A stretch of 35,440 nt of DNA from an uncultured Lachnospiraceae bacterium (GTDB lineage Bacteria; Bacillota; Clostridia; Lachnospirales; Lachnospiraceae): assembly GCA_947174665.1 (NCBI GenBank), contig CAMWJV010000022.1:1-35440 (forward strand), in the 5' to 3' direction. The stretch's first letter is position 1, and the number at the start of each line of letters is the position of its first letter. Under the pieces are notes generated by a model. The model ran no database searches, was not told the DNA's origin, and saw only the letters and a list, made by a program, of their open reading frames with translations. Position numbers and translations under genes: made by a program. Below are positions 5,123 through 27,805 of the stretch, piece after piece.

Positions 5123-7135
5123 TTACTTCGCATCAAAAACTCTTCCTGTGGGTATCAGGGTCTCTTCGTCACCGGCATAACCTGTCTGTATATATTCCAC
5201 CATGTGATCTTCGCCCAGATATTTATACAGCAGATATCTTCTTTCCCTGTAATCGCCTTCCTGATATTCAAAACAATCATCAGACAGATTTCCTTCCAGC
5301 AATTTATAATATGCCTCCACAAGGTCTTCATAGGAAATCGGTGCGCCGGATATTTTCAGATCATGACTTTCGTTCAATCCCTTGACAAACAAAATAGGAT
5401 GCTGTCTGCCGTTCTGATTTTCGTCACGCTGAGGAATGCGGACTGCATCACCGGAAATATTATACCCATGGTCGGACAATACAAAGATAATAGAATTATC
5501 ATATACACCCGCTTCTCTGAGTTTATCCAGATATGCCATTGTAACAGTCATGGAGGACTCAATACAGGTAAAATAGTCTGCATCTTCAATTTCGTTCACG
5601 TATTGGTCATATCTGAAAGGAACGTGGGCACCCATAAGATGAATCAATTTGAATCTTTTTTCATCGACACAGGTTATGCTCTCCTTTTTTACATCATCAT
5701 AAAAAGCGCCATTGTTCCATACAAATAATTCCGCATCCTTTGAACCCAACTGTTGATGATTAAGCTTGTTGGGATCAAACCAGCAATAGGGTTTCATAAA
5801 ATACGGTGCATATTTGACGCCTGTCATTTTGATAATACGTGTATTGAACAATTGTGGATCCAATAAGGTCGACTTTGCATATGTCATATTTGCAAATTCA
5901 CCGTCCATAACACCCGTTTCAAACTGAATCTCATCATCATAAAAGCTCAGGGAATATCCTTGCTCCTCAAGAAAATTAAAAAAAGGTGAATCCCGGTAGA
6001 TTCTGTCGATGTAATCCTCATAAGGTTCCTCATTTTCAAACCATTCTCCGGAAATCATAAGCGGGAGGGAATGATCTGTATAGGCATAGCCCGACATAGC
6101 ATTATAGGGTTTCATAAAATACGGTGCATATTTGACGCCTGTCATTTTGATAATACGTGTATTGAACAATTGTGGATCCAATAAGGTCGACTTTGCATAT
6201 GTCATATTTGCAAATTCACCGTCCATAACACCCGTTTCAAACTGAATCTCATCATCATAAAAGCTCAGGGAATATCCTTGCTCCTCAAGAAAATTAAAAA
6301 AAGGTGAATCCCGGTAGATTCTGTCGATGTAATCCTCATAAGGTTCCTCATTTTCAAACCATTCTCCGGAAATCATAAGCGGGAGGGAATGATCTGTATA
6401 GGCATAGCCCGACATAGCATTATTGTAAAATGTAAAATCAGCCATGGCTTCCTCATATTCGGGATGCCGCTCCCATATTTCCCAGAAACATGCCTCATCA
6501 ATCGCATCCAATAATAATATAATGAAATTTGTATCAGAAGACATCTCAAACTGATCGTTTTTTGTAAATTTGACAAACTGCTTTTGTTTCAGCAATCCTC
6601 CGTTTACACCAAGCACTGTAAGAGTGCTGCCCAGCATCAAAAAGAAGAAAATGCTTGCACAAAACACCAAAGTCAGAAATTTTCTGCTTTTCAGGATAAG
6701 CAGAACTGCCAGGATAACGATTGCGATCACAAGCCAGATAATCACATCCCAAATAGTTTCAGAGCGATACATATCCCAGTTGACATCTGTCCCGTCAAAA
6801 GGGGGCAGTCCGCTAACCAGGTAATTCCCCTGAATATAGCAGGCAATAAAGCATGTAAAATAGCAATACACCGCAGCCGTATAAAAAAAATTCCCCAGCA
6901 GATAAGCAGCAATGAATCCGCAAAGGCTGACAGCTGAAGCAATAAGAAAATCCTTTATCAGAAACGGCATCAGCATATAGCTGTCATACCAGAATTCATT
7001 CTGATTGCCGAGATATATTTCTAACGGAGCAAAAATAAACAGCATAAAGCAGGAAACTATCGTCAGGAAAACAGCCGGTTTCAGACCCGAAATCATTTTC
7101 CCTTTATCCCATCTCTGTTTTATCCATGTGCTCAT
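5123..7135 (-). CDS. Alkaline-phosphatase-superfamily (sulfatase/LtaS-like) membrane enzyme with internal duplication
   Basis: 670 residues. About five membrane helices occupy residues 15-180, and the rest is a large extracytoplasmic domain of the sulfatase/LtaS superfamily. Metal-binding features are LLLDAID near 208-214 and VLSDHG near 560. The nucleophile position appears to be the Thr of YAYTDHSLP, so a phospho-transferase or hydrolase is more likely than a Cys/Ser sulfatase. A 106-residue block that starts NAMSGYAY and contains this Thr occurs twice in perfect tandem; without it the protein would be 564 residues. The start has AAGGAGG 10 nt upstream. It is the last gene of the operon with the YidC-glycerophosphotransferase fusion, so a role in modifying or polymerising a glycerophosphate polymer is plausible. 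Whether the duplicated enzyme is active is unknown. Confidence 0.85.
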   Translation of the reverse strand: MSTWIKQRWDKGKMISGLKPAVFLTIVSCFMLFIFAPLEIYLGNQNEFWYDSYMLMPFLIKDFLIASAVSLCGFIAAYLLGNFFYTAAVYCYFTCFIACYIQGNYLVSGLPPFDGTDVNWDMYRSETIWDVIIWLVIAIVILAVLLILKSRKFLTLVFCASIFFFLMLGSTLTVLGVNGGLLKQKQFVKFTKNDQFEMSSDTNFIILLLDAIDEACFWEIWERHPEYEEAMADFTFYNNAMSGYAYTDHSLPLMISGEWFENEEPYEDYIDRIYRDSPFFNFLEEQGYSLSFYDDEIQFETGVMDGEFANMTYAKSTLLDPQLFNTRIIKMTGVKYAPYFMKPYNAMSGYAYTDHSLPLMISGEWFENEEPYEDYIDRIYRDSPFFNFLEEQGYSLSFYDDEIQFETGVMDGEFANMTYAKSTLLDPQLFNTRIIKMTGVKYAPYFMKPYCWFDPNKLNHQQLGSKDAELFVWNNGAFYDDVKKESITCVDEKRFKLIHLMGAHVPFRYDQYVNEIEDADYFTCIESSMTVTMAYLDKLREAGVYDNSIIFVLSDHGYNISGDAVRIPQRDENQNGRQHPILFVKGLNESHDLKISGAPISYEDLVEAYYKLLEGNLSDDCFEYQEGDYRERRYLLYKYLGEDHMVEYIQTGYAGDEETLIPTGRVFDAK
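5786..6423. repeat. Perfect 318-bp in-frame tandem duplication
   Basis: Positions 5786-6105 match 6104-6423 base for base as far as I can compare by eye, with a period of 318 bp (106 codons). Identity ends abruptly on both sides. The two copies share a 2-nt AT at the junction, consistent with microhomology or slippage. No substitutions are visible, so it is very recent, or an assembly or strain-level artefact. Confidence 0.95.
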
Positions 7136-7216: not shown

Positions 7217-7738
7217 TTATTTGATCACTTTTCCCTTTATTTCCTTTCTGTTGATCAATCCAATTTCCTCATAACGGCTGTCTATGCTCTCCTGCAGATT
7301 ATCGCCCAGCACAAAATATCTGTCTTCTCCAAGGAAAATCTCTTCTTCCGCAATACCGGCAAAGTCAATTCTCTGCTGAAGATCACTTCGAACTTCTTCA
7401 TTGACATATAAAACACCATCTCTGATACAGACCAGATCTCCCGGTACGCCGACAATTCTTTTTACCACATAGCCGCTGATACCCTCCTTTTTAATTGCAA
7501 TGACATCTCCGTAAGTATAATCTTTCGAATACTTATCCAATATCAGAAATTGACCGTTATGATAAGCCGGCTCCATAGAATTTCCCTGCAGCAGCATAAG
7601 TTGAAAATAATTGGCGGACACATACCCTGCAATAATAAACAGGAAGATAATTCCCAACAGAAGTTTACTCTTTATAAACTTCAATATCGTCAGATTCAAC
7701 TTCCTTATTTTTATTTTCATCGATATCAAATTTTTCAT
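7217..7738 (-). CDS. Type I signal peptidase (S26 family)
   Basis: 173 residues, the usual length for a Gram-positive SipS/SpsB enzyme. One N-terminal membrane helix (about 25-45) is followed by the catalytic Ser54 in GNSMEP, substrate-binding residues around YGDVIAI, the catalytic Lys93 in VVKRIVGVPGD, and the closing box GDNLQESIDSR. It cleaves signal peptides on the outer face of the membrane. Its first codons overlap the end of the upstream small membrane protein gene by 74 nt at this start. An ATG at 7720 shortens the overlap, but neither start has a good ribosome site. In Staphylococcus aureus the LTA synthase is cut by a type I signal peptidase, so the next gene's product is a possible substrate (inference). 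Confidence 0.93.
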   Translation of the reverse strand: MKNLISMKIKIRKLNLTILKFIKSKLLLGIIFLFIIAGYVSANYFQLMLLQGNSMEPAYHNGQFLILDKYSKDYTYGDVIAIKKEGISGYVVKRIVGVPGDLVCIRDGVLYVNEEVRSDLQQRIDFAGIAEEEIFLGEDRYFVLGDNLQESIDSRYEEIGLINRKEIKGKVIK

Positions 7739-7967
7739 TTAATTTTTTCTTAGCTCTCCTCCAGTAAATGCCGGCTACAGCGCCAATTGCGATCACTATT
7801 CCCGACACAGCCTGAATCACATAGGTCATGACAGAAGGGTCAATATAAGCATAGCCGTTTGCCCCGAATAAAAGCATTCCGGCAATAAAAAAATAGAAAC
7901 CCGCACCAACTGCAACCGCAAAATTCTTTATTGATCTTTTAACTGAATCTTTCTTAAAATGATGCAT
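7665..7967 (-). CDS. Small membrane protein (two helices, YIDP motif)
   Basis: 100 residues. A basic start is followed by a membrane helix at about 15-38, an outside loop with YAYIDPS, a second helix at about 47-67, then a charged cytoplasmic tail rich in Lys, Asp and Glu. Short proteins with a YIDP loop between two helices occur in cell-surface polymer clusters, but no biochemical role is assigned here. AAGGAG overlaps the last codons of the upstream fusion gene, and the start lies 2 nt past that stop, so the genes are co-translated. The 3' end overlaps the signal peptidase gene. It is probably an accessory subunit of the polymer machinery. Confidence 0.8.
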   Translation of the reverse strand: MHHFKKDSVKRSIKNFAVAVGAGFYFFIAGMLLFGANGYAYIDPSVMTYVIQAVSGIVIAIGAVAGIYWRRAKKKLNEKFDIDENKNKEVESDDIEVYKE

Positions 7968-7969
7968 GT

Positions 7970-9865
7970 TTATTTTCTCCTTTTCGCTATTTTTTCCTGT
8001 AATGAACTGATTATATATCCCGCGCCCGTTTCTGCACTGCTGCCGGGATTGTATACATATTCTTCCACAAAAGAATGAATACGTTCTTTATAAAACGACT
8101 GCATTTTTATAAGCCTGTCTACCGTTTCCGGAATTTTGCCCATTTCATCTAAATTGAGTGAACAGCCTATTTCCTCCCTCAGCAATATATTAAGCGGAAC
8201 CGTATCAATCTTGTTATATTCCGGATTCATGACTTTCATGGGCGTATTGATAAACAGCACCGGCTTTTCAGTAGTATAAGCATATTCATAGGCGATTCCG
8301 GACCAATCCGTTATCATAACATCCGCTTCGAACACAGTTTGATTCGATGAAAAATCTGTCTGAATTTCAATATTGTCCCGGTTGCTGTATTTCTGCTTCA
8401 AAGAATTCATAAATACTTTTTTTTGTCTTACATGCTGCGGATGCGGCCTTACAATAATCTGATAAGGCCTGTGGACTAAACTGTCCAAAATCTCTTCAAG
8501 GCAGCTGTCAACAATATTATCCGGCTGCCATGAGGGTGCGATCAGGATCGTAGTTTCCTTGCTTCCGGAGGAATGCGCACTGTAACTTTCTTTCATGTCA
8601 TCCAGCAATCCGTACCCCCATTCCACCAGTTTCTTTTGGGGCAGATCATATACCGCCTCTGTTTTCTCAATTTCTTCCTTCTGATGCTTTCCGACACAAA
8701 ACACAGTGTCATAATGATTCATGGAACCGGTGCGCATCGTCAGGTTTAAGCTGTCCATACCATGAGGAATATAAATGTATTCTATATCATCCCGCACATA
8801 ACTTCTTTTTATGTGGAAATTATCAAGATCCGGCATTGTCATAACCACAATATCCGCATCCATTTTCATCATCATTGTGATCAGGCGCTTTTCACCAATA
8901 TAATAAGCCTTCAGCCTGCTGTTGCTTTTTTCCAGTTGGAAAATATTATCATCAGGGTCGCTGGTAATATAGTGAATAATAATATTTGTCCTGCTCAACA
9001 GGTATTCGATGATTCCGCGATAATATTTATAAAAGCCGCTGCCTTCCGAATAAAAGACAACATGCTTATTTACCACAGAAAAAAATCTTTTATAATCTGC
9101 TCGTTCTCTCCTTGCCAGGACAGATCCAAAACTATTTTTCCCTGTTTTACCAATTCCCTCCAGCTCACTCAGCTTCTGTTTGCTGTCATTCAGTTTTTCA
9201 TAGTCAATATACTTGCCGGGATTAATGGCAATGTTAAGCGCAAAAAGCAACACTATGGCAAATAAGTTGCTTGCCGTCCAATAGACAGCTACTCCGACAG
9301 GTACAAACCAGCCGAGCCAGAGAGACAGGGCCACTGAAAAAATCAGCACGCCGTATTGACTCCTCTTTGATTGTTCCATTTGCAGAACATTTGCGGCGTT
9401 TTGGGCAACACCAAGAAGCCATGCTGAAACACCTGCAATGACAGGTGAAAAGATCAGCATGCCCCCTTTCTCCGAAGGCACAAGGCTTAGATCGATCCCA
9501 AAAAAGTCCATGGATATCTCCGGATCTCCGATACCGGCTTTAATAACTTCAATCACTCCCAGCAACAACAATATCTGAAGTATCATAGGCACCACAGAGG
9601 CAAAAGGATTATATTTTTCCCGTTTGAATATTTTGGCCTGTTCTTCAGCAATCAGATCCTTGTCACCAAAAAGGCGTATCTTCATGTAATTTATTTCGGG
9701 CTGCATCTTTACCATCTTAATAGAGTTTTTTTGTACCCATACAGATACGGGTAACAAGATTATTTTGCTTAACAAGGTAAAAAGGATGATTGCAAACCCA
9801 TAATTGTTAACCAAAAAATAACAGCCGCTCATTATCCATGTAAGTATATTTACAAGAATTTTCAT
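7970..9865 (-). CDS. YidC/Oxa1-like insertase fused to CDP-glycerol glycerophosphotransferase
   Basis: About 631 residues from the ATG at 9863-9865. The first 225 or so are a YidC/Oxa1 core: NNYGFAIILFTLLSKIILLP, then MQPEI, a cytoplasmic hairpin with a KYNP segment, and three further helices. The positively charged groove residue, usually Arg in Gram-positive YidC, is Lys here. After a charged linker comes a TagF/TagB-type domain with IPHG, RPHPQ and ITDWSGIAYEYA, which would transfer glycerol phosphate from CDP-glycerol to a membrane acceptor. The start is chosen because AGAGG lies 6 nt upstream, and because the longer TTG-start frame (9913) would begin inside the promoter. It is the first gene of the envelope operon. 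The fusion suggests polymer priming linked to membrane insertion or export (inference). Confidence 0.9.
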   Translation of the reverse strand: MKILVNILTWIMSGCYFLVNNYGFAIILFTLLSKIILLPVSVWVQKNSIKMVKMQPEINYMKIRLFGDKDLIAEEQAKIFKREKYNPFASVVPMILQILLLLGVIEVIKAGIGDPEISMDFFGIDLSLVPSEKGGMLIFSPVIAGVSAWLLGVAQNAANVLQMEQSKRSQYGVLIFSVALSLWLGWFVPVGVAVYWTASNLFAIVLLFALNIAINPGKYIDYEKLNDSKQKLSELEGIGKTGKNSFGSVLARRERADYKRFFSVVNKHVVFYSEGSGFYKYYRGIIEYLLSRTNIIIHYITSDPDDNIFQLEKSNSRLKAYYIGEKRLITMMMKMDADIVVMTMPDLDNFHIKRSYVRDDIEYIYIPHGMDSLNLTMRTGSMNHYDTVFCVGKHQKEEIEKTEAVYDLPQKKLVEWGYGLLDDMKESYSAHSSGSKETTILIAPSWQPDNIVDSCLEEILDSLVHRPYQIIVRPHPQHVRQKKVFMNSLKQKYSNRDNIEIQTDFSSNQTVFEADVMITDWSGIAYEYAYTTEKPVLFINTPMKVMNPEYNKIDTVPLNILLREEIGCSLNLDEMGKIPETVDRLIKMQSFYKERIHSFVEEYVYNPGSSAETGAGYIISSLQEKIAKRRK

Positions 9866-9901
9866 GCCGAACCTCTGATACCAGTATTTTACATATTTTT
9901 C

Positions 9902-9931
9902 AGTATATGACAACTACTTACGAAATGTCAA
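9902..9931 (-). promoter_or_regulatory. Promoter of the YidC-glycerophosphotransferase operon
   Basis: On the minus strand a consensus TTGACA (9926-9931) and TATACT (9902-9907) are 18 nt apart. The predicted start near 9895 leaves a leader of about 30 nt before the ATG at 9865. This rules out the upstream TTG at 9911-9913 as a start codon. Confidence 0.75.
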
Positions 9932-10013: not shown

Positions 10014-11561
10014 TTATCTCTTATACACAAGCCTGTAACTGCCCGTAACAGTGGAAGTCCCATCGGGCTGCCAGGGGAAATCCTCTATAACGCTTGCTTC
10101 CACTCCGACGAGCCCGGAATATTCCAGCCAATCCTCCTCACAGTTTAAGACATAGAAAGAAAGGTTATAGCTGCCGCTGTCCAAATGAAAGGGGAAAGAT
10201 TCCACATCCAGATATGTGGCGCCCGTTGTGTCAAAGTATATCTCATCCTCATCTTTAAGCACCACTGCTGCAATGACCCCTTCCCGGTCAACCTCCCATT
10301 TGGCATAAAAAATGTATTCTCCCGCCTGCGAAATATCAATGTCGAACTCCTCCCACAGTATGGAATCCCGGCTGCTCTCGGCCGTATATTGAAAATTTCC
10401 TTCCGCTGAAATATTGTTGCGTGTAAAAAGCAGAAGCAGACCAAACACCTGGCCGATAACGGCCACGGACGTAACCAGAATAATGATTTTCCTGCCCACA
10501 GAGTTACTGAAATTGTCGAACATTCCCAATATTCTTTTGGCGAATAATAGGACCATGGATACAAAAACAAGGGTCGCACACAGTGATACTGCAATCGGAT
10601 GAAACCCGGTATTATCTATAAATTTAACAAGATCATCACCCGGATTGGCAAGATTCATCAGACAGCATAAAGGACCCACAATCCATGAAATGATCGAAAG
10701 CAGAAATTCCCCTGACATTATAACCAGTGAAATGTTCAATAGGGAATGCTTTTTCGACCCTCTGCAAAGCAGGAGAACTGCCGCCGCTGTTATAAGCGGC
10801 AATAACACTCCTGCCACATCAACGAATGCCAATGATAAATTTCCCACAACCCCTTTATATGTCATATGCGCATCCGAACCAAAGGGCTGGAATCCCGTAA
10901 CAGTTCCGCCGCAGATCCATACAGCGATACAATGCCCCAGCTCATGCAGAAAAGAATACAGGAAGGGCGCACAGCAGATCAGACATATGGCAATACCTAC
11001 TGTATGCATTCGCGGCCCGGATACAGAAGACGCCATGCCCTGTCCATGCTCCCGCCTGTTCTTCAGCTCTGCCAGTATTCCGTTCAGGCGCAGGATCTGC
11101 CCAAGAAATACTGCCAGAAAGACCGCCGCCAGCAAGGCGGACACCCAGCCCACAGCATTTTTCAGCATCACAGCGGAAGTAACTCCATAAAACAAACCTA
11201 CTCCTTCTATCATGCTGACTGCCTGGAACATATTTCTGATCTTCCTATAGTGCTCATAGGTAGACTCCGCATCCGTATACAATTCAAAAGGCCCTTCCTC
11301 CGCCTTTCTGCGCAGAATAACCCAGGGGCCCCAAAGGCACACGATCTCCACCCCCATCTCACACATAAACTGCCGGTAACTCTCCGGCACACTGAACATT
11401 TTTTCTGCAATATCAACCTGATAAATGTATTCCCCCGGCTCACATTCAGCAAAACGGTAAAAGCCGAAGAAAAAGCCTGTCAGTGCCTTTCCCTGTTTTG
11501 CCATGCTGTTGAGCCACTCCGTCGTCTCATTTGTGTTGAAACTCCATCGAAATTTAACCAT
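10014..11561 (-). CDS. DUF2812 domain fused to a membrane zincin (HELGH), second paralogue
   Basis: 515 residues. A DUF2812-type N-terminal domain covers about 1-115 and is rich in aromatic residues (GFFFGFYRF, CEPGEYIYQ). Two helices follow near 120-170, then a membrane segment containing FLHELGHC near 205-213, whose HExxH is the zinc-protease signature of site-2-protease-like and related membrane zincins. More helices run to about 375, and an outside beta-rich domain (about 385-510) with WEEFDIDISQAGEY completes the protein. DUF2812 genes usually accompany PadR regulators, as here. It is a paralogue of the protein at 11634-13178, 72 nt upstream, so a gene duplication is evident. The start has AAGGAAAA upstream. 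The substrate is unknown and protease activity is inferred from one motif. Confidence 0.82.
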   Translation of the reverse strand: MVKFRWSFNTNETTEWLNSMAKQGKALTGFFFGFYRFAECEPGEYIYQVDIAEKMFSVPESYRQFMCEMGVEIVCLWGPWVILRRKAEEGPFELYTDAESTYEHYRKIRNMFQAVSMIEGVGLFYGVTSAVMLKNAVGWVSALLAAVFLAVFLGQILRLNGILAELKNRREHGQGMASSVSGPRMHTVGIAICLICCAPFLYSFLHELGHCIAVWICGGTVTGFQPFGSDAHMTYKGVVGNLSLAFVDVAGVLLPLITAAAVLLLCRGSKKHSLLNISLVIMSGEFLLSIISWIVGPLCCLMNLANPGDDLVKFIDNTGFHPIAVSLCATLVFVSMVLLFAKRILGMFDNFSNSVGRKIIILVTSVAVIGQVFGLLLLFTRNNISAEGNFQYTAESSRDSILWEEFDIDISQAGEYIFYAKWEVDREGVIAAVVLKDEDEIYFDTTGATYLDVESFPFHLDSGSYNLSFYVLNCEEDWLEYSGLVGVEASVIEDFPWQPDGTSTVTGSYRLVYKR

Positions 11562-11633
11562 TTCTGTTTTCCTTTCACTCTGTTGTCAGAAACTTGTTTT
11601 GTCTCTTTTACTCTTCACTTTTACTCTTATAAG

Positions 11634-13178
11634 TCAATTCCGGTTATAAACCGGCGCTAGACTGTAGCTTCCCGTGACAGTGGCTGCCCCGTCGGGCTGC
11701 CAGGAATAATCCTCCAACCCGCTTGCATCCCTTCCGGTAATCCTGCAATATTCCAGCCAGTCCTCTTCACAGCTCATAAAATAAAACGATAGGGTATAGC
11801 TGCCGCTGTCCAAATAAAAAGGGCCGGATTCCAGGGTTAAATACGATGCGCTGGCGCCGTTGTATATCCCATCCTCATCTTTCAATATCACTGCCGCAAG
11901 GACTCCTTCCCGGTCAATCTCCCATTCGAGATAAAAGCTATAGTCTCCCGCCTGTGAAATATCAATATCTAATTCCTGCCACAGTATGGAATCCTGCCTG
12001 CCCTCAGCCGTATATAGAAAATTACCTTTCGCAGGAACTTTTCCGAATGCAAAGAATAAAAAAAACATATCCATGGCAGCGACTATGGCTGTGACCAGAA
12101 TAATATATTTCCTGACCGCAGATCTGCTGAAATCGTCGAACATTCCCAGCATCCTTCTGGCAAATAAAAGGACTATGGACACGAAAACAAGAGTTGCACA
12201 GAGTGCCACTGCCGCCGGATGAAATCCTGTGTCATCAATAAAGTGAATAACATCCTCACGCGGATTGACATAGTTCAACAGACACAATAAGGGTTCTATT
12301 ATCCAGAGAATAACCGGCGAAATGAAATTCGCTGACATGATCAGCAGTAACATATTCAGCAGCGAACGTTTTTTCGAATTTCTGTAAAACAGGAGAACTG
12401 CCGCCGCTATCATAAACGGCAGTAAAGCTCCTGCCACATGAACGAATCCCCTTGATAAACTTTCGACAACCCCTGTATATGTCATATGGGCGTCCGAGCC
12501 AAAGGGATGGAATCCCGTAACGGTTCCGCCGCAGATCCACACAGCGATACAATGTCCCAGCTCATGCAGGAAGGAATACAGGAATGGCACACAGCAGAGA
12601 AATACGGCAATGCATCCTCCATGCTTTCGCAGCACAGATGCGGAGACTGCCTCTCCCTGCCCGGGCTCCAGCCTGCTCTTCAGGTCTTTCAGTATTCCAC
12701 TCAGGTGCATACTCTCCTTCAAAAATGCCGCCAAAAAAACCGCTATCACCAAAGCAGTCACCAGACCTGAAGCACCTTTAAAAATCTCACCATAAATAAC
12801 CATATTAAGCAGACCGGCAGCTGTTATCATACTGGCTACCTGAAACATATTCCTGATCTTTACATAGTGCTCAAGTGAAGACCCTGCATCCGTGTACAGT
12901 TCAAAAGGCCCATCCTCCGCCTTTTTGCGCAGAACAACCCAGAACCCCCAGATGCACACGATCTCCACTCCCATCTCACACATAAACTGCCGATAACTCT
13001 CCGGCAAGCTGAATATTTTGTCCACCATATCCAGCTGATAAATATACTCTCCCGGCTCACACTTTGTAAAACGGTAACCTCCGAAGAAAAAACCTGTCAT
13101 GGCCCACCCCTGCTCTGCCATCCGGTTGAGCCATTTTGTCTCTTTATCACTGTCAAAGAACAGTCTAAACTTAACCAT
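11634..13178 (-). CDS. DUF2812 domain fused to a membrane zincin (HELGH), first paralogue
   Basis: 514 residues, with the same domain order as its neighbour: DUF2812-like 1-115, helices, FLHELGHC in a membrane segment near 205, the shared GGTVTGFHPFGSDAHMTY stretch, more helices, and an outside beta-rich domain from about 385. The two proteins are clearly homologous throughout, and the zincin motif and GSDAHMTY are fully conserved between them, so both are probably functional. The start has GAGGG a few bases upstream and lies 33 nt after the DUF6440 gene, so one transcript from the PadR promoter is likely. What it cleaves, or whether it cleaves at all, is not visible. A role in envelope stress or signalling is only suggested by the PadR context. 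Confidence 0.82.
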   Translation of the reverse strand: MVKFRLFFDSDKETKWLNRMAEQGWAMTGFFFGGYRFTKCEPGEYIYQLDMVDKIFSLPESYRQFMCEMGVEIVCIWGFWVVLRKKAEDGPFELYTDAGSSLEHYVKIRNMFQVASMITAAGLLNMVIYGEIFKGASGLVTALVIAVFLAAFLKESMHLSGILKDLKSRLEPGQGEAVSASVLRKHGGCIAVFLCCVPFLYSFLHELGHCIAVWICGGTVTGFHPFGSDAHMTYTGVVESLSRGFVHVAGALLPFMIAAAVLLFYRNSKKRSLLNMLLLIMSANFISPVILWIIEPLLCLLNYVNPREDVIHFIDDTGFHPAAVALCATLVFVSIVLLFARRMLGMFDDFSRSAVRKYIILVTAIVAAMDMFFLFFAFGKVPAKGNFLYTAEGRQDSILWQELDIDISQAGDYSFYLEWEIDREGVLAAVILKDEDGIYNGASASYLTLESGPFYLDSGSYTLSFYFMSCEEDWLEYCRITGRDASGLEDYSWQPDGAATVTGSYSLAPVYNRN

Positions 13179-13211: not shown

Positions 13212-13385
13212 CTATTTTCTACCTGTTACAATGGGCTTTCCTTCATTGTCAAGCAGCGGCGTAAAGCCTCCTGCATATCCGAAACGGTAAAACACATAAT
13301 TAACACCTGTTTCTGTATCAATCCAAATTTCAGTTCTGACAACGAATCCCTGACTATAAACCCTTACAAAACGATTCATAAACAT
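13212..13385 (-). CDS. DUF6440-like small protein
   Basis: 57 residues. The sequence MFMNRFVRVYSQGF followed by TGVNYVFYRFGYAGGFTPLLD and GKPIV matches the small DUF6440 family, whose hallmark is a TGVNY(L/V)F...GYAGG.TPLLD core. The function is unknown. The first ATG overlaps the PadR stop (TAATG), and GGAGG lies 4 nt before it. A second ATG at 13379 gives a 10-nt spacing and is equally possible. The tight coupling with padR and the position just before the DUF2812 genes make it part of the PadR operon. Confidence 0.8.
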   Translation of the reverse strand: MFMNRFVRVYSQGFVVRTEIWIDTETGVNYVFYRFGYAGGFTPLLDNEGKPIVTGRK

Positions 13386-13696
13386 TATTCCTCCTCAAAA
13401 ATTGCAGCATTTGCCAACAGTTCCTCCAGGCGCATCTTTTCCTCGCGAAACATGCCAACGCCCACATCTGTAATGATATACAGCTTCTTTTTTCGAGAAT
13501 CCGTCTCCTCGCTGTAAATACGTATCCAGCCCTTCTCCATCATGGTCTGAATAGCTCCGTACAGTGTGCCCGCCCCCAGCACTACTCTGCCCTTTGTCAA
13601 CTCCTCCACCTCACGAATGATACCGTATCCGTGGTTTGGCTTCCGCAGTGACAAAAGAATATAAAACAGTGCCTCTGTCAGTGGAATGTTTTTCAT
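13385..13696 (-). CDS. PadR-family transcriptional repressor
   Basis: 103 residues, typical of the short PadR subfamily 2. A winged helix covers about 5-80 with LTEALFYILLSLRKPNHGYGI and GRVVLGAGTLYGAIQTM, then the wing around KKLYIITDVG and a short C-terminal dimerisation helix. PadR proteins repress their own operon and respond to small molecules, often antimicrobials or lipids. GGGAGG lies upstream of the ATG. The promoter region carries palindromic CGATATAT sites, which fits autoregulation. It heads the operon DUF6440 - DUF2812-zincin - DUF2812-zincin. Confidence 0.95.
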   Translation of the reverse strand: MKNIPLTEALFYILLSLRKPNHGYGIIREVEELTKGRVVLGAGTLYGAIQTMMEKGWIRIYSEETDSRKKKLYIITDVGVGMFREEKMRLEELLANAAIFEEE

Positions 13697-15546: not shown

Positions 15547-17058
15547 TTAGAATTGTACGGGTTTCACATCCTCCGTCAGGGGTTCAAACTTATATTCCGG
15601 GAGGCTGTCTATGAGCTCCTCCAGACAGAGGGTAGTATTGTACACAATATCGTGAGCCAGCATTACCACCTTTTTCCGCCCCAGCGTGCTCTCCCTGGCA
15701 TTCTTTATCAGCTGTTCCGGGGTAGTCTTTGCAACGGCATCCTCCAGACAGCCGTTCCAGTCAAAGTAGATAAAGCCCCTCTCCGTCATCTCCGCAATAA
15801 TCTCCTCATACACATCCGCATTGTAGGCATTGATGCTGCCGCCGGGAAACCGGAACAGCTTCACCTCCACCCCGGTGATCTCATATATCGCATCATAGGC
15901 CGCCTGAAAATCCGCCAGGTAGCTTTCCACACTCTCATAGATCACATCATATTCATGCCGGTTGCAGTGAATGCCAATGGTGTGGCCCTCCTCCGCAATC
16001 CTGCGGGCAACCTCCGGGTGCTTCCGCACGTTTTCCCCCACCAGGAAAAAGGTGGCCTTAATATTATGCTCCTTAAGAATATCCAGCACTGCTGTGGTGT
16101 TGTCCTGAGAAGGCCCGTCGTCAAAGGTGAGATACATTGTTTTGGGATTGAAATAATAATTGATTCCATCCGCGATTCCCGCTGCAATCTTATCCTGATA
16201 AGCGGGATCACACAGCAGTTTTCTCTCCTCCCTGTTGGACAGAAAGCCTGTCTCAATCAAACAGGATGACATAGATGTCTCCCGAATCACATACAGTTCA
16301 TCCGTCTCACACAGCTCCCGCTCCTTTGCACCGGTTTTCCCCAGTACCCCCGTGTGTACCAGCCGGGCAAGACGCCTGCTGCCTTCCGAGTCATCACAGT
16401 ACCAGGTCTCAATTCCTTTTACAGAACTTTGCTTCTCCTCACAGGCATTCTGATGAATACTGACATAAATATCAGCTTCCGCTTCCTCCGCTATGGCGAC
16501 GCGCTCCTCCAGGGTCAGGTCGGTATCATTGTCCCCCCTTGTGAGCAACACATCAAAACCCATCTCGCGGAGCCTGGCAGCAGCGCGCATTGCTATTTTC
16601 AGATTGATTTCCTTTTCCAGGGCCTCCTCCCTCATGCAGCCTTCATCCTCTCCGCCATGCCCCGGATCAAGAACAATCAACGGTGTCTTTGGTTCCGGCT
16701 CCGATGTGGGTTCCGGTTCCACGTCCGCTGTGACTTCCTGCTGTGACATTTGTGTTGTTTCCATTTCGCTGCCATCGAAAAGGGGAGTGTTTCCGGACGA
16801 TGCTGCTGTTTTCTCCCCTTGGAAAGAGTCCGCAGGCAGAAGGCAAAAATAAAGTACACTCAGGCAGATAGAAAGCGTCAGCATTACGGTCATGAGCACT
16901 GCGGCAATTCTGCCTGCTCGGCTATTAGAGCACGCTCCGCTATTGGAGCCTGCTCTGCCCTGTATGCCTGCCCTGCTGCCGGCGCAAGTTCTGCTGTCCC
17001 AGGCGCTCACACGCACCAGCCTCACCTCATAGCCTTTTCCTCTTGCCCGCCCGTACAT
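15547..17058 (-). CDS. Secreted N-acetylmuramoyl-L-alanine amidase fused to polysaccharide deacetylase
   Basis: About 503 residues from the ATG at 17056-17058. That start is chosen because GGAGG (17068-17072) lies 9 nt upstream; the frame stays open to 17157 without another ribosome site. A short cytoplasmic segment with Ser/Ala/Gly repeats precedes a membrane anchor, then a Thr/Ser/Pro-rich linker. An Amidase_3 domain follows with zinc ligands in DPGHGGEDEG, EKEINL and SIHQNA and the catalytic Glu in IETGFLSN. A NodB deacetylase domain then shows TFDDGP, HCNRH, RFPGGS and LAHD. One enzyme can thus cut the stem peptide from muramic acid and remove acetyl groups from glycan. It is probably transcribed alone from the promoter at 17098-17127. 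Confidence 0.92.
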   Translation of the reverse strand: MYGRARGKGYEVRLVRVSAWDSRTCAGSRAGIQGRAGSNSGACSNSRAGRIAAVLMTVMLTLSICLSVLYFCLLPADSFQGEKTAASSGNTPLFDGSEMETTQMSQQEVTADVEPEPTSEPEPKTPLIVLDPGHGGEDEGCMREEALEKEINLKIAMRAAARLREMGFDVLLTRGDNDTDLTLEERVAIAEEAEADIYVSIHQNACEEKQSSVKGIETWYCDDSEGSRRLARLVHTGVLGKTGAKERELCETDELYVIRETSMSSCLIETGFLSNREERKLLCDPAYQDKIAAGIADGINYYFNPKTMYLTFDDGPSQDNTTAVLDILKEHNIKATFFLVGENVRKHPEVARRIAEEGHTIGIHCNRHEYDVIYESVESYLADFQAAYDAIYEITGVEVKLFRFPGGSINAYNADVYEEIIAEMTERGFIYFDWNGCLEDAVAKTTPEQLIKNARESTLGRKKVVMLAHDIVYNTTLCLEELIDSLPEYKFEPLTEDVKPVQF

Positions 17059-17077
17059 AACATCAAACCTCCATACT

Positions 17078-17117
17078 AAAAAATCCCCTGCAGCCACTAT
17101 ATATAGCTTACAGGGGA
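17078..17117 (-). terminator. Intrinsic terminator of the second two-component operon
   Basis: TCCCCTG (17084-17090) and CAGGGGA (17111-17117) pair around a 20-nt loop that holds a small AGC/GCT inner stem. On the minus strand six T residues follow (17078-17083). It lies about 75 nt past the stop of the 17192-18025 gene and directly abuts the amidase ribosome site. Confidence 0.8.
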
Positions 17118-17127
17118 ACTCCGTCAA
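17098..17127 (-). promoter_or_regulatory. Amidase/deacetylase promoter embedded in the upstream terminator
   Basis: On the minus strand TTGACG (17122-17127) is followed after 16-18 nt by TATATATA (17098-17105). The -10 lies in the loop of the terminator hairpin, so a transcript starting here would lack the 5' arm and could not form it. Confidence 0.5.
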
Positions 17128-17191
17128 ATATTCATAATTTTGGCATAAAATTTTCAAACTTTTTCCATAAAAGTTGCATCATCCCATTTCC

Positions 17192-23967: not shown

Positions 23968-25812
23968 TCATAGTGATTCTGCAGGTCCGGCAGCCCCTGT
24001 AAACAGTGCTTCAAATTCTTCCCTGCTGATCTTCTCCTTCTCCAGCAGAAGTTTTGCACAGTTATGGAGCACCTGCTCATTCTCCTTAATGATCATTTTT
24101 GCTCGGGAATAGCACTCTTTGATGATTGCCTTCACTTCCCGGTCTATCTCCCCGGCCACCGCCTCACTGTGAGACTTTGCATGGGCAAGATCCCGGCCGA
24201 TAAACACTTCGTCATCATCGTCATCATAGCATATAACACCAATATTCTCTGACATGCCAAAGCGGGTCACCATTCTTCTTGCCACCTTAGTTGCCCTCTT
24301 GATGTCGCTGGAGGCGCCCGTGGTAATATCCTTGAAAATAATCTCCTCGGCAATTCTTCCGCCCAGGGACACCATGATATCCTGAAGCATCTGCCCCTTT
24401 GTCAGGTAGATCTCATCCTTTTCCGGCAAGGGCATGGTATAGCCCGCTGCCCCCTGGCCCGTGGGGATAATGGATACCGTATATACCGGACCCACATCCG
24501 GCAGCACATGAAACAGAATTGCATGCCCGGCCTCGTGATAAGCCGTAATCCTTTTCTCCTTGTCAGAAATAATGCGGCTCCTTTTCTCCGCGCCGATTCC
24601 CACCTTGACGAATGCCTTGCGTATATCATCCTGACACAGGTACGCCTTACCGCCCTTCGCAGCGTTAATGGCAGCCTCATTCAGCAGATTTTCAAGGTCA
24701 GCGCCGGTAAACCCTGCAGTAGTCTGGGCAATCTGCTTCAGATCAACATCCTCGGACAACGGTTTGTTCCGGGCATGAACCTTCAGGATTTCCTCTCTGC
24801 CGCCTACGTCGGGAGTACTCACAGCCACCTTTCTGTCGAAACGCCCGGGCCGAAGAATAGCAGGGTCCAGAATGTCCACCCTGTTGGTGGCTGCCATGAC
24901 AATGATTCCCTCATTGATGCCAAACCCGTCCATTTCCACCAGCAGCTGGTTCAACGTCTGCTCACGCTCATCATGTCCACCGCCCATGCCGGTTCCCCTG
25001 CGTCTGGCCACAGCGTCAATCTCGTCAATAAACACGATACATGGCGCGTTCCTTTTCGCCTCCTCAAACAGATCACGGACCCTGGATGCGCCCACGCCCA
25101 CATACATCTCTACGAAATCCGAACCGGAAATACTGAAAAAAGCAACGTTCGCCTCTCCTGCCACGGCCTTTGCCAGCAGCGTCTTACCTGTTCCGGGAGG
25201 CCCCTCCAGCAGTACACCCTTGGGTATTCTGGCTCCCATTCTGTTGTATTTTCCGGGCTCCTTCAGAAAGTCCACGATTTCCTGAAGATCCTCCTTTTCC
25301 TCACTCAGTCCCGCCACCTGCTCAAAAGAGATAATCTTATCCCCCTTGAACATCTTGGCCCGGCTTCTGCCAAAGTTCATCATCTTGGCATTTCCCGCGC
25401 TCGCCCCGGCATTCTGAGCATTAATCATCATAAAGAGGAAAATTCCCACCACGATTACGATCACCATCGGCACCAGGGTAGTCAGCACCCAGCTCTGGCG
25501 CGGCACATCGCTGACCATGGGGTCGAACCCGTATGACCGGATAAGCGCCTCCATCTCGATCACATCCGTCACATACAGCGTCTTGTTCTCCCCGCTCTTC
25601 AGCACAATATCCAGCGCACCTGTGGGAGTCTCACCGTTCAGCTTAATCTGCACGCCGGTAATATTGCCGGCCTCCAGATCCGCAAAAAATTGCCCCTTGG
25701 TGTAGTCCTCCTCTATCTTCCGGCTCACAATATTAAAAACCAGAACGATCGACAGCATAAAAAGAATAAAAACAAAAAAAGAATAAAATCCTCTGCCTTC
25801 TCGCCTCAACAT
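23968..25812 (-). CDS. ftsH: ATP-dependent zinc metalloprotease FtsH
   Basis: 614 residues. Membrane helices at about 8-30 and 108-130 flank the periplasmic-type domain. The AAA domain has Walker A GPPGTGKT (204-211), Walker B IVFIDEID (about 259-266) and the second region of homology RPGRFDR. The M41 protease zinc site is HEAGH (426-430), with the third ligand expected in the later SSDI.RAT region. It degrades misfolded membrane proteins and regulatory substrates at the cytoplasmic membrane. AGGAGG overlaps the stop codon of tilS-hpt 10 nt upstream, so the genes are co-transcribed, matching the conserved tilS-hprT-ftsH order of Bacillota. Nothing is missing. Confidence 0.97.
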
Positions 25813-25822
25813 TTAAAGCCTC

Positions 25823-27805
25823 CTATTTGTCAAATTCCACTACTCCGATATACGGCAGATTGCGGTACATCTGGTCATAGTCCAGGCCATATCCCACCAC
25901 AAACTCATCAGGAATTTTAAATCCTGTGTAATCCACCTTCACATCAATGACACGTCTGTCAGGTTTATCCAGTAAGGTACAGAGCCGCAGGGATGCCGGC
26001 CCTCTGTCATGCAGCATCTCCATCAGATAGCTCAGCGTCCTGCCGCTGTCCACGATATCCTCCACCACCAGCACATCCTTGCCTTGCAGAGATTCATCCA
26101 AATCCTTCACAATCTTCACCACTCCACTGGATTTGGTATCACTTCCATAGCTGGATACCGACATAAAATCAAGAGATACGGGAACAGTAATTCGCTTTGC
26201 CAGTTCACACATAAAAAAGCTGCCGCCCTTCAGCACGCACACCATATGAACGCTTTTCCCTGCATAGTCTTTGCTGATCTGTTCCCCGATTTCCCTGATT
26301 CTCGCCTCCACCTCTTCTTCCGACAAAAGAACTCTGATATGCTCTGACATTTTCTCCTCCGTTTCACTGTCTGCGCAGTTTCCTTTTAATTTTACCTGTA
26401 AAATACGTTTTGTATTCCTGTCAGCCTTATAATATTCGCTGCTTCGGTATCCGATCAGCCACAGAACATGGCTGCCCTCCGCCAGCACAGGAATCCGGTC
26501 TCTCATCTCTCTGGGTATCTTCTCCCCGATCATGTACTCCTTTAAAGACTTATGGATCGTATTCCCTCTGCCGTCCGACAGGGTGAGATAATCACCTGTC
26601 TGCCGAAAACGGAGAACCGGAGATTCTTTTATTTTATCACAGTCAAACCGTTTCGTATACCGATTTTCGGGAACTTCCTCTGCATCATTGACAAAAAAAC
26701 GGGCAATTTCCAGTTCCGGCAGCTCTTTCGGCTGCTGTTCCTGCTGCTCTGCCTCCCGTCGTCCGGCAGCCACCTTCCCATAACGCCTGCGGAAACAGAT
26801 GCCAAAGGGCAGGCTGATACTGCGGTTTCCTTCCTTTTCAAACAGGCTTAAAATTTCTTCCACATGCACCGCGGAAATATCCTTTCCCGTGGGTGAAAGC
26901 CCCTCGGCAAGAACAAGGATCATTCTCTTCTGCAGGACAGGATGACAGGCAAGAAATCCGGCAATATCAATTTCCAGCTCCTTCCCCCTGCATCCGGATG
27001 CACGGATCGTACAGTGTTCCAGCGCCTCAAGAGTCTGCTGCCGCAGATAGTCCTCCGTCTCGGACAAAATGTCCGCCGTCCTGCACATATGACTCACCAC
27101 CCCGGCGGAAACTTCCTGCTCCGCCCAGGGCAGAAGATGATGTCGGATACGGTTTCTGGTGTATCCGTCCTCCCCGTTGGTGGCGTCCGTCCGCCAGGGA
27201 ATCCGCCTCTCCTCCAGATATTCCTCTATCTCCCGGCGCTCCAGGCAGAGCACAGGGCGGACTATCTCCGCCCGGCGGACTATCTCCGCCCGGCGGACTA
27301 TCTCCTCCCGGCAGTCAATATCCGCCCTCACCGGCTCTATGCCCCGCAGGCCTTTCAGGCCGCTTCCCCGAAACAGATGGAGCAGTATGGTCTCTGCCCT
27401 GTCGCCTGCATTGTGAGCCACCGCGATCTTTGTTCCGCCAAACTCCTCTGCCGCCTTCTGAAAAGCTTTATAGCGCAGACGCCTCCCCGCATCCTCCTCG
27501 GAGCATTTCTCCCGAGCTGCCAGCTCTCTCACATCCGCAGACTCCAGCCGAAAGTTAAGTCCCTGCTCCCGGCAAAGCGCCTCCACCCAGGCGGCATCCT
27601 CCGCCGCAGCATTTCCACGAATACCATGGTTCACATGAACCACTGTCATTTCAAAGGGCACTCTTTTTCTGTATTCCAACAACAGAAACAAGAGGCAAAC
27701 AGAGTCTGCCCCTCCTGAAACCCCGAGGATAAGCTTATCCCCGGGGTTTATCATCCCATGTTTTTCCACAAAGGAAAAAACCTTTTCTTCCACCTGCTTT
27801 ACCAT
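25823..27805 (-). CDS. tilS-hpt: tRNA(Ile)-lysidine synthase TilS fused to hypoxanthine phosphoribosyltransferase
   Basis: 660 residues. TilS (about 1-475) has the PP-loop SGGADS (30-35), VHVNHGIRG and AHNAGDRAET. It attaches lysine to cytidine 34 of tRNA-Ile(CAU) to switch its decoding from AUG to AUA. The C-terminal 175 residues (from Met486) are a complete Hpt with the PRPP motif VVEDIVDSGRTL and VLKGGSFF, for purine salvage. No stop separates them, yet GGAGGAG (26354-26360) sits just before the Met486 codon, so a free Hpt may also be made. A comparable TilS/HprT fusion is known in Listeria. An 18-bp repeat expands a TilS loop. A TTGACA/TACCAT pair lies just before the start but would give almost no leader. 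Confidence 0.93.
   Translation of the reverse strand: MVKQVEEKVFSFVEKHGMINPGDKLILGVSGGADSVCLLFLLLEYRKRVPFEMTVVHVNHGIRGNAAAEDAAWVEALCREQGLNFRLESADVRELAAREKCSEEDAGRRLRYKAFQKAAEEFGGTKIAVAHNAGDRAETILLHLFRGSGLKGLRGIEPVRADIDCREEIVRRAEIVRRAEIVRPVLCLERREIEEYLEERRIPWRTDATNGEDGYTRNRIRHHLLPWAEQEVSAGVVSHMCRTADILSETEDYLRQQTLEALEHCTIRASGCRGKELEIDIAGFLACHPVLQKRMILVLAEGLSPTGKDISAVHVEEILSLFEKEGNRSISLPFGICFRRRYGKVAAGRREAEQQEQQPKELPELEIARFFVNDAEEVPENRYTKRFDCDKIKESPVLRFRQTGDYLTLSDGRGNTIHKSLKEYMIGEKIPREMRDRIPVLAEGSHVLWLIGYRSSEYYKADRNTKRILQVKLKGNCADSETEEKMSEHIRVLLSEEEVEARIREIGEQISKDYAGKSVHMVCVLKGGSFFMCELAKRITVPVSLDFMSVSSYGSDTKSSGVVKIVKDLDESLQGKDVLVVEDIVDSGRTLSYLMEMLHDRGPASLRLCTLLDKPDRRVIDVKVDYTGFKIPDEFVVGYGLDYDQMYRNLPYIGVVEFDK
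26348..26360 (-). promoter_or_regulatory. Internal ribosome site and ATG for stand-alone Hpt
   Basis: Within the fused frame GGAGGAG (26354-26360) precedes an ATG at 26348-26350, where the Hpt homology begins. It could allow reinitiation or internal entry giving a 175-residue Hpt, or be a relic of separate genes. Confidence 0.6.
27258..27311. repeat. Three tandem copies of an 18-bp unit inside tilS
   Basis: CGGACTATCTCCGCCCGG occurs at 27258-27275, 27276-27293 and, with one change, 27294-27311. It is in frame and encodes the hexapeptide IVRRAE/IVRP series between the GIEPVR and RPVLCL segments of TilS. Copy number could vary without breaking the frame. Confidence 0.9.

Follow-up and report, generated by a model that had tools for sequence, protein, structure and literature searches.

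What could a membrane-protein insertase domain be doing in the same polypeptide as a transferase of the teichoic-acid type? The question is raised by one gene of the window, that is, the whole stretch of 35,440 nucleotides analysed here, from an uncultured Lachnospiraceae bacterium. The first-pass annotation had read this gene as a YidC insertase fused to a CDP-glycerol glycerophosphotransferase, heading an operon that would make and place a glycerophosphate polymer or decorate membrane proteins. The fusion itself is real: a single unbroken open reading frame runs from 7970 to 9913 on the minus strand and encodes 647 residues if translation starts at a TTG, or 631 if it starts at the ATG at 9865 (the latter form, P0001, gives the numbering used below). 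At an E value of 0.01 its Pfam matches are confined to PF02096 (60KD_IMP, residues 38-224, 101.1 bits against a cut-off of 35) and PF04464 (Glyphos_transf, residues 280-555, 38.8 bits against 22.1), the same search returning no LicD domain; TIGR03592 (yidC_oxa1_cterm) is reached with 91.8 bits against 84.3. The same architecture was recovered elsewhere: all 120 listed database matches carry both Pfam domains in precomputed annotation, and a near-full-length fusion is present in 18 of 294 genomes of the order, which leads us to reject a chance or misassembled junction. Where the databases name the listed proteins, they call them YidC insertase. A viral origin was likewise rejected, one single-protein scan of viral contigs having returned no relative of the fusion. 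The features of the region are the following.

9902..9931, minus strand: promoter-like TTGACA-18-TATACT, 11/12, just upstream of the fusion ATG (sequence scan)
7970..9865, minus strand: YidC::PF04464 fusion coding sequence, 631 aa from the ATG, extendable to the TTG at 9913
9242..9802, minus strand: YidC/Oxa1 insertase-family domain (PF02096), aligned with E. coli YidC 3wvf/5mg3
8249..9076, minus strand: PF04464 phosphotransferase domain, divergent (Pfam match)
9764..9766, minus strand: lysine aligned with the E. coli YidC arginine that we take to be Arg366
8762..8764, minus strand: invariant histidine of an IPHG motif, aligned with the WHG histidine of a canonical TagB/F-like protein
8441..8443, minus strand: invariant histidine of an RPHP motif (83/83)
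8300..8311, minus strand: TDWS motif, matching by alignment the TDYS of canonical PF04464 proteins
7665..7967, minus strand: YIDP-motif membrane anchor, 100 aa, with a leader, a predicted mature Tyr-Ile-Asp-Pro N-terminus, one helix and a basic then acidic tail
7217..7738, minus strand: type I signal peptidase (TIGR02227, 107.5 bits, cut-off 47), start uncertain, overlapping the anchor gene
5123..7135, minus strand: LtaS-like membrane enzyme of the sulfatase superfamily (PF00884, 54.4 bits, cut-off 25), with an in-frame repeat in this copy
5786..6403, minus strand: repeat within the LtaS-like gene, 300-base copies at 5786-6085 and 6104-6403, 100% identical

The promoter-like site is weak alone, the region holding 23 such sites against a shuffled mean of 17.3. 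The signal peptidase, the small membrane protein and the LtaS-like enzyme lie beside the fusion as annotated; the small protein, described as two-helix, does span 100 residues and belongs to the membrane, and a cleaved leader followed by one helix is the more likely layout. The repeat of the LtaS-like gene, whose copies are 318 bases apart and in frame, was not found in the five relatives aligned with the window's copy and is perhaps an assembly error. In the LtaS-like family D213, T250, H405 and D458-H459 are invariant over 27 rows, the window's copy not among them, and we take these residues to be the metal ligands and the threonine nucleophile. The best PDB match of the family profile is LtaS (2w5q, E 3e-8), with choline-sulfatase and phosphonate monoester hydrolase chains close behind.

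This neighbourhood is conserved. A collection holding one genome per species yielded 309 relatives of the fusion, and among the best 80 loci, which are near kin, the YIDP anchor lies beside the fusion in 70 and the LtaS-like enzyme in 50, many of the other 30 being stretches that end early. At L119 one open reading frame matches both the anchor and the LtaS-like profiles. Such an operon looks like a membrane machine with a task of its own at the cell surface, in keeping with the dedicated machine that had been proposed.

The residues of both halves are also retained. The groove cation of the YidC domain is lysine in 81 and arginine in 2 of 83 fusions, so that the degenerate YidC half, named beforehand as the evidence that would count against the reading, is not borne out at this position, the sole one checked. 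A positive charge there is not a universal mark of YidC, since the ordinary YidC of the same genus at L021 carries asparagine, and the idea that its loss would betray a non-insertase was dropped on that ground. In the PF04464 domain, which, to judge by the families, would lie on the cytosolic side and have a GT-B fold, H368, H475, D520 and S522 are kept in 83 of 83 fusions and T519 in 79; we take the histidine pair and the TDxS residues to be the catalytic positions of TagF. The stretch that follows the first histidine, whgtplkrl in TagF, is aligned with PHGMDSLNLTMRTG in the fusions, and the domain scores 39 bits where the canonical L143 protein scores 207.3.

The genes around the fusion bear on the donor that such a divergent transferase would use. 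Donor-type genes, those expected to make a CMP- or CDP-activated donor, occur in 42 of the 53 loci that have 4 kb on both sides (out of the best 80 of 309): 16 with an NTP-transferase::CobD-like fusion, 13 of aminoethylphosphonate type, 6 with an aminotransferase and a nucleotidyltransferase, 5 with a LicC-like gene only and 2 of choline-kinase type. Ten of the other 11 have no donor gene and one has a TagD-like gene only. The donor genes lie within 1.5 kb of the fusion in 37 loci, on the same strand in 36 of these, and were found in none of the control loci (0/20 around housekeeping YidC, 0/21 around TagD). For PEP mutase, phosphonopyruvate decarboxylase and AEP aminotransferase, representative proteins pass the equivalog cut-offs, and the LicC/PntC-like and PntC-AEPT-like identities come from PDB matches. 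At least one of PepM, Ppd and AepZ is present in 17 of the best 80 loci, and L126 and L127 hold all three together with a PntC-like gene, the latter by custom HMM only. Choline-type genes adjoin the fusion at L130 (choline kinase and BCCT transporter, by Pfam) and at L028 (choline-kinase, LicC-like and BCCT-type look-alikes, read by eye); LicD, present in 6 of 80 fusion loci, was not found above threshold in these two stretches.

The NTP-transferase::CobD-like fusion (NTP::CobD) resembles Tde PntC (6pd1) in its N-terminal half. It was rejected as the known PntC-AEPT, the C-terminal half matching the threonine-phosphate decarboxylase-like 6oux and not a class V transaminase; that match points to a phosphoserine-decarboxylase-like role, and the protein would make CDP-ethanolamine. 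Judged from these gene assignments, the donors at fusion loci should mostly be aminoethylphosphonate or, more indirectly, phosphoethanolamine, with putative CDP-choline donor genes at rare loci. On the fusion tree the donor type swaps between AEP and CobD at least 13 times over 49 rows, which is what near-isosteric donors would lead one to expect.

The same association appears genome by genome: among the 294 genomes, PepM and/or NTP::CobD occur in 14 of 18 with the fusion and in 45 of 276 others (p=7e-8). TagD above its cut-off is found in one fusion genome (G131) out of 18 and in 25 of the 276 others, in none of the 6 genomes having the stand-alone transferase only, and not in G000, where the best score is 111 bits against a cut-off of 165. 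The fusion is absent from all 21 TagD loci, at least 15 of which contain TagB/F-like genes (one-query search). These counts and the control loci are the reason for which we reject a CDP-glycerol polymerase as the main reading. That the fusion polymerises or transfers glycerophosphate in the teichoic-acid manner would agree with the above-cut-off PF04464 match, the retained histidine pair and TDxS motif, the LtaS-like partner, a TagD-like gene in the L099 operon, TagD in G131 and a TagD-like::oxidoreductase fusion in 6 of 80 loci (112 bits at L064 against the TagD cut-off of 165). The replaced segment after the histidine and the low family score, set beside the near absence of TagD, make it very unlikely. 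The CDP-glycerol donor and the glycerophosphate polymer are thus the unsupported parts of the annotation, and genome context points to CMP-AEP, CDP-ethanolamine or CDP-choline-type donors instead; use of a different nucleotide donor had been named beforehand as evidence against the reading.

A second domain arrangement bears on the role of the YidC half. In 9 of 11 loci a stand-alone transferase adjoins a YidC::sulfatase-like (LtaS-like) protein; L140 and L141 showed no such neighbour among the proteins tested. In all 10 read, this transferase starts with the YIDP motif, the anchor being fused to it, and 13 of 13 YidC::sulfatase-type proteins read have asparagine or glutamine at the groove position. 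At L133 a six-gene run adds PntC-like, AepZ, PepM and Ppd genes to the YidC::sulfatase protein and the YIDP transferase. This suggests that the YidC family was recruited for an enzymatic job in two domain arrangements.

The model we propose, and consider probable, puts the fusion at the centre of a membrane-spanning machine by which zwitterionic amino-alcohol phosph(on)ates would be carried from CMP/CDP donors to the envelope; its activity, its acceptor and the part played by YidC are putative. The cell would produce, to judge by the linked genes, CMP-aminoethylphosphonate, CDP-ethanolamine or CDP-choline. The cytosolic PF04464 domain, as its family and histidines suggest, would transfer the amino-alcohol phosph(on)ate from the nucleotide to a membrane-held acceptor. 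YidC proteins form a polar groove that is open to the cytosol and reaches into the bilayer. The YidC-like domain would keep the transferase and a lipid-linked acceptor at the membrane and aid the crossing of the product, assisted by the YIDP anchor, from which the signal peptidase of the operon may cleave the leader. The external LtaS-like enzyme would finally pass the group to its last acceptor. The conserved neighbourhoods and the reciprocal domain fusions suggest that these four parts form one assembly.

Simpler roles for YidC have to be weighed against this model. The YidC half might be a membrane anchor only, the transferase using an ordinary acceptor of the cytosolic leaflet and the LtaS-like enzyme working independently; the second arrangement does anchor its transferase by the YIDP helix, and in 30 of the 80 loci the fetched stretch lacks an LtaS-like gene, many of these stretches ending early. 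Yet that arrangement still keeps YidC, on the adjoining LtaS-like enzyme, in 9 of 11 loci, and the groove cation is kept in every one of the 83 fusions. Since YidC is present in both arrangements, which is more than simple anchoring needs, we consider an anchor-only role unlikely. It might instead be an insertase dedicated to placing the YIDP anchor, the multi-helix LtaS-like enzyme or both in the membrane beside the transferase, as the passed YidC family cut-offs and the anchor gene of 70 loci would allow. A second, ordinary YidC accompanies the fusion in 8 of 9 genomes of one check and in 4 of 7 of another, the three genomes without one being 82-85% complete, and would leave the fused copy free to specialise. 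In the second arrangement, however, the anchor belongs to the transferase and the LtaS-like part to the YidC protein, so that no separate client of this kind is left; we find a dedicated insertase unlikely.

A bolder form of the proposed machine, which we regard as speculative and improbable, would make the YidC-like domain a dedicated lipid translocator. In a bacterial Kennedy-type step the PF04464 enzyme would take aminoethylphosphonate or phosphoethanolamine off its CMP/CDP donor and load it onto a lipid carrier, diacylglycerol perhaps; YidC would pass the charged lipid across the bilayer, and the LtaS-like enzyme would discharge it onto surface glycans, the carrier being returned. An insertase family would then have become a flippase serving head-group transfer. 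Passages of a preprint (PMC10491306) describe lipid scrambling by E. coli YidC in vitro.

The proposed machine shares parts with several known systems. In the Pnt pathway, as presented in passages of Rice et al. (2019; PMC6697681), CMP-AEP destined for the cell surface is produced by PepM, Ppd, an AEP transaminase and a cytidylyltransferase of the LicC/PntC type. Genes of this kind adjoin many fusions, whereas those passages name LicD-like phosphotransferases or glycosyltransferases as the neighbours. What follows PEP mutase in tailoring is termed enigmatic there, and its main text does not contain the terms yidc, glycerophospho and sulfatase at all. The operon is a candidate for the step that transfers the group in phosphonyl tailoring and for its crossing of the membrane. 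With the Lic pathway (LicA, LicC, LicD, choline transporter) it shares the activation of a zwitterionic amino-alcohol phosphate by cytidylyl transfer, with choline-kinase, LicC-like and BCCT-type genes at L130 and L028, but the fused domain is PF04464 and not LicD. TagB/TagF/TarL (3l7i, 8va1) share family, aligned histidines and TDxS motif, and differ in score (207 bits against 39), in the segment after the histidine and in TagD, which scarcely co-occurs with the fusion. The LtaS-like partner has LtaS as its top structural match and the same Asp, Thr, His and Asp-His pattern, but is distant, linked to amino-alcohol donor genes and YidC-fused in one arrangement. Compared with YidC/Oxa1 insertases, whose family models and groove cation it keeps, the window protein has an enzyme at its C-terminal end and sits in an operon. 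An interaction of zwitterionic surface groups with the immune system of mammals is mentioned in the abstract of PMC11982090.

The donor genes also occur apart from the fusion: 22 of 28 NTP::CobD genomes and 27 of 36 PepM genomes are without it. In the window's own genome, where no PF04464 match other than the fusion was found, PepM, Ppd and NTP::CobD are clustered on another contig, C25, unlinked to the fusion and near a flagellin-like gene and glycan-type genes, and may serve something else. Completeness of at least 90% and contamination of at most 5% are listed for 15 of the 18 fusion genomes, the others being G000 (82.7% complete), G145 (6% contaminated) and G252 (9%). The fusion, carried by some bacteria of the gut and the rumen, is listed under titles of Lachnospiraceae, Oscillospiraceae, Bacilli and Saccharibacteria; the analysis also suggests that Saccharibacteria acquired the machine from Bacillota.

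The fusion is a real, conserved protein and a member of a recurring gene set. Positions 7970-9913 of the window (reverse strand) form one unbroken open frame, which encodes 631 amino acids (P0001) when started at the ATG at 9865; a Pfam search detects the YidC/Oxa1 domain PF02096 at 101.1 bits (cut-off 35) and the transferase domain PF04464 at 38.8 bits (cut-off 22.1), and no further Pfam family at E 0.01. Searching 5.8 billion proteins gave 8000 scored candidates, of which 7048 passed E 0.001, and both domains are present in all of the best 120, the hits listed; three of these (P0042, P0097, P0119) carry a source name, YidC insertase each time. A fusion spanning most of our 637-position model occurs in 18 of 294 genomes of the order. 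A collection of one genome per species holds 309 fusion loci, the best 80 of which make up our named set, under titles that include Lachnospiraceae, Oscillospiraceae, Eubacteriales, Solobacterium, Bacilli and Candidatus Saccharibacteria, among others. The two collections are not independent, since same or near-copy genomes are common to both (identical rows L039/L118, L060/L120 and L072/L119). The joining of YidC to a PF04464 domain, proposed in the first-pass annotation together with a search for it elsewhere, is thereby confirmed. Degeneracy of the YidC half, which that annotation had raised as an objection, is not observed at the one position compared: the groove cation is kept in 83 of 83 fusions, as lysine (81) or arginine (2), where E. 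coli YidC has arginine.

The annotation had further taken the transferase for a CDP-glycerol enzyme making a glycerophosphate polymer, and here the gene neighbourhoods point elsewhere. Neighbour clustering and family searches of representatives identify, beside the fusions, PEP mutase (PepM; TIGR02320, 404-418 bits in four proteins, cut-off 320), phosphonopyruvate decarboxylase (Ppd; TIGR03297), 2-aminoethylphosphonate aminotransferase (AepZ; TIGR03301) and LicC/PntC-type nucleotidyltransferases, whose best PDB match is CTP:phosphocholine cytidylyltransferase 1jyk. In the NTP::CobD fusion, such a nucleotidyltransferase, which also matches the PntC-AEPT protein 6pd1, is joined to a CobD-like PLP enzyme (best match threonine-phosphate decarboxylase-like 6oux). 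Loci L126 and L127 carry on one strand the LtaS-like gene, the anchor, the fusion, AepZ and PepM, then PntC-like and Ppd genes in either order; at L130 the fusion adjoins a choline kinase, a BCCT transporter (both by Pfam) and a LicC-like gene, and by eye the neighbours at L028 resemble this set. Among the 53 of 80 named loci with at least 4 kb on both flanks of the fusion, 42 contain a donor-type gene, distributed as follows:

NTP::CobD: 16 loci
Aminoethylphosphonate (AEP) genes: 13 loci
Aminotransferase plus nucleotidyltransferase: 6 loci
LicC-like gene only: 5 loci
Choline-kinase-like gene: 2 loci

One other locus has a TagD-like gene alone and ten have no donor gene. The nearest donor gene lies within 1.5 kb of the fusion in 37 of the 53 loci, on the same strand in 36 of these 37. 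Under identical HMMs and donor thresholds, neither the 20 housekeeping-YidC control loci nor the 21 TagD control loci yielded a donor gene; the latter contain a TagB/F-like gene in 15 cases (one-query search) and LicD in three. Two housekeeping-YidC loci matched other HMMs, L155 that of the fusion at more than 100 bits, probably through the ordinary YidC itself, and L164 that of the LtaS-like family.

The same association appears across the 294 genomes, in tests that assume independent genomes, which related genomes are not. PepM is found in 9 of 18 fusion genomes versus 27 of 276 others (Fisher p=5e-5; the match in G188 reads through one stop), and PepM or NTP::CobD in 14 versus 45 (p=7e-8; 28 NTP::CobD genomes counted, G013 with the N half only). 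TagD is found in 1 versus 25 (p=1; 26 matches counted, G242 below cut-off). Four fusion genomes lack both PepM and NTP::CobD: choline-type genes adjoin the fusion in G058 and G092, two nucleotidyltransferase-like genes below our threshold adjoin it in G111, and G131 has TagD and its fusion on a 6-kb contig. To account for the 49 rows with a label, the fusion tree requires at least 13 AEP/CobD switches, against a mean of 16.6 when labels are shuffled (5 of 200 shuffles gave so low a count); the donor association is therefore not one inherited linkage. The labels include AEP for L022, assigned from genes about 15 kb away, and CobD for L023, whose gene lies on a different contig. With TagD in a single fusion genome and amino-alcohol-type donor genes at 42 of 53 loci instead, the most likely donor, rather than CDP-glycerol, is an amino-alcohol phosphate or phosphonate activated with CMP or CDP. 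Near the fusion in L064, L065, L070, L074, L081 and L084 lies a TagD-like cytidylyltransferase::Gfo/Idh/MocA oxidoreductase, which could be the source of some further CDP-activated donor.

The 83 fusions all have the two histidines; in the TDWS motif Asp, Trp and Ser never vary, and Thr is present in 79. Aligned with L143, a canonical TagB/F-like protein of the order (PF04464 at 207 bits, best PDB match TagF 3l7i), the fusion shares the histidine and TDxS positions; L143's second motif (WHL) is less surely aligned, and the stretch following the first histidine differs.

The window's operon runs on one strand through the fusion, the anchor gene (after a gap of 2 bases), a signal peptidase gene that overlaps the anchor gene, and the LtaS-like gene. 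A promoter-like site (11/12 match) occupies 9902-9931; sites of this kind are only slightly more numerous in the surrounding region than the shuffled mean. Of the 80 named loci, many of them truncated at a contig end, 70 match the HMM built in this analysis for the anchor, 50 that for the LtaS-like gene and 32 that for the signal peptidase. All 84 anchor-family sequences contain Tyr-Ile-Asp-Pro or a motif very like it. Since in 71 of them it directly follows a signal-peptide-type pattern (a small residue at -1 and either a small or an aliphatic one at -3), the anchor is more likely a leader, one helix and a basic tail than the two-helix protein first described, the annotation's signal peptidase and LtaS-like neighbours being retained. 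It would be an obvious candidate substrate of the operon's signal peptidase. All 27 rows of the LtaS-like family have the Asp, Thr, His and Asp-His that were expected, and LtaS is the family's best match among PDB chains. Within the window's copy, 5786-6403 comprises two exact, in-frame 300-base copies 318 bases apart that contain the Thr predicted to be the nucleophile; an assembly error or a very recent duplication is the probable cause.

Eleven stand-alone relatives of the transferase domain (ten from the order scan, one from L029) present another arrangement. Nine of their loci (L029, L133-L139, L142) encode a neighbour of 861-964 amino acids with N-terminal PF02096 and a C-terminal sulfatase-like domain (PF00884 below its cut-off in L029 and L135); among the proteins tested, L140 and L141 have none. 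All ten stand-alone transferases read (L142's left out) bear YIDPGTGSMLF near the N-terminus, and a 756-amino-acid ORF of L119 matches both the anchor and LtaS-like HMMs. YidC is thus joined to either the transferase or the LtaS-like enzyme; the YIDP helix is either separate or part of one of the enzymes. Mainly because of this reciprocal shuffling, we infer that the transferase, the YidC domain, the anchor and the LtaS-like enzyme would be parts of one assembly. PepM occurs in four of the eleven loci (L133, L136, L139, L140).

In the window's own genome the donor genes are unlinked to the fusion: Ppd (over cut-off), PepM (414.6 bits) and NTP::CobD (1027 bits) lie within about 8 kb on contig C25, and by linkage in relatives they would feed the fusion. 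Glycan-type genes are also nearby, as is, a few kb away, a flagellin look-alike by eye (L111, 9833-12955); on contig C109 (L116, 3302-8424) two LicD-like genes adjoin a TagD-like::oxidoreductase gene. These surroundings make a role in modifying surface glycans or flagella possible. The assembly contains no TagD over cut-off, no other PF04464 match and no housekeeping YidC, absences that are weak since it is 82.7% complete. A second PF02096 match was present in 8 of 9 fusion genomes in one check and 4 of 7 in another.

In a quick, midpoint-rooted tree of 103 fusions, 14 Saccharibacteria-titled rows (L061, L062, L065, L066, L070, L073, L076, L077, L081, L083, L084, L086, L089, L099) form one strongly supported clade within Bacillota, for which a single lateral transfer would be the simplest reading. 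Six of these genomes, of 0.7-0.9 Mb each, were checked; all have an ordinary YidC, in five on the fusion's contig, which argues against mis-binning.

No full text in the open-access library searched joins YidC, CDP-glycerol glycerophosphotransferase and fusion, and an earlier description in subscription papers, outside this scope, is possible. Nor does any join phosphonate, YidC and PEP mutase; YidC with aminoethylphosphonate returned nothing besides one Streptomyces genome paper, and further open-access searches gave no description of the YidC-transferase architecture among the records listed.

Other features of the window are the following:

10014-13178: two tandem DUF2812 proteins, an odd duplicated pair with weak M50B-like matches (below cut-off), downstream in the sense of transcription of a PadR regulator at 13385-13696
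15547-17157: a single ORF with N-acetylmuramoyl-L-alanine amidase (Amidase_3) and polysaccharide deacetylase matches
25823-27805: a phosphoribosyltransferase domain joined to a TilS-type protein
23968-25812: an FtsH-like protease adjoining this TilS-phosphoribosyltransferase fusion gene
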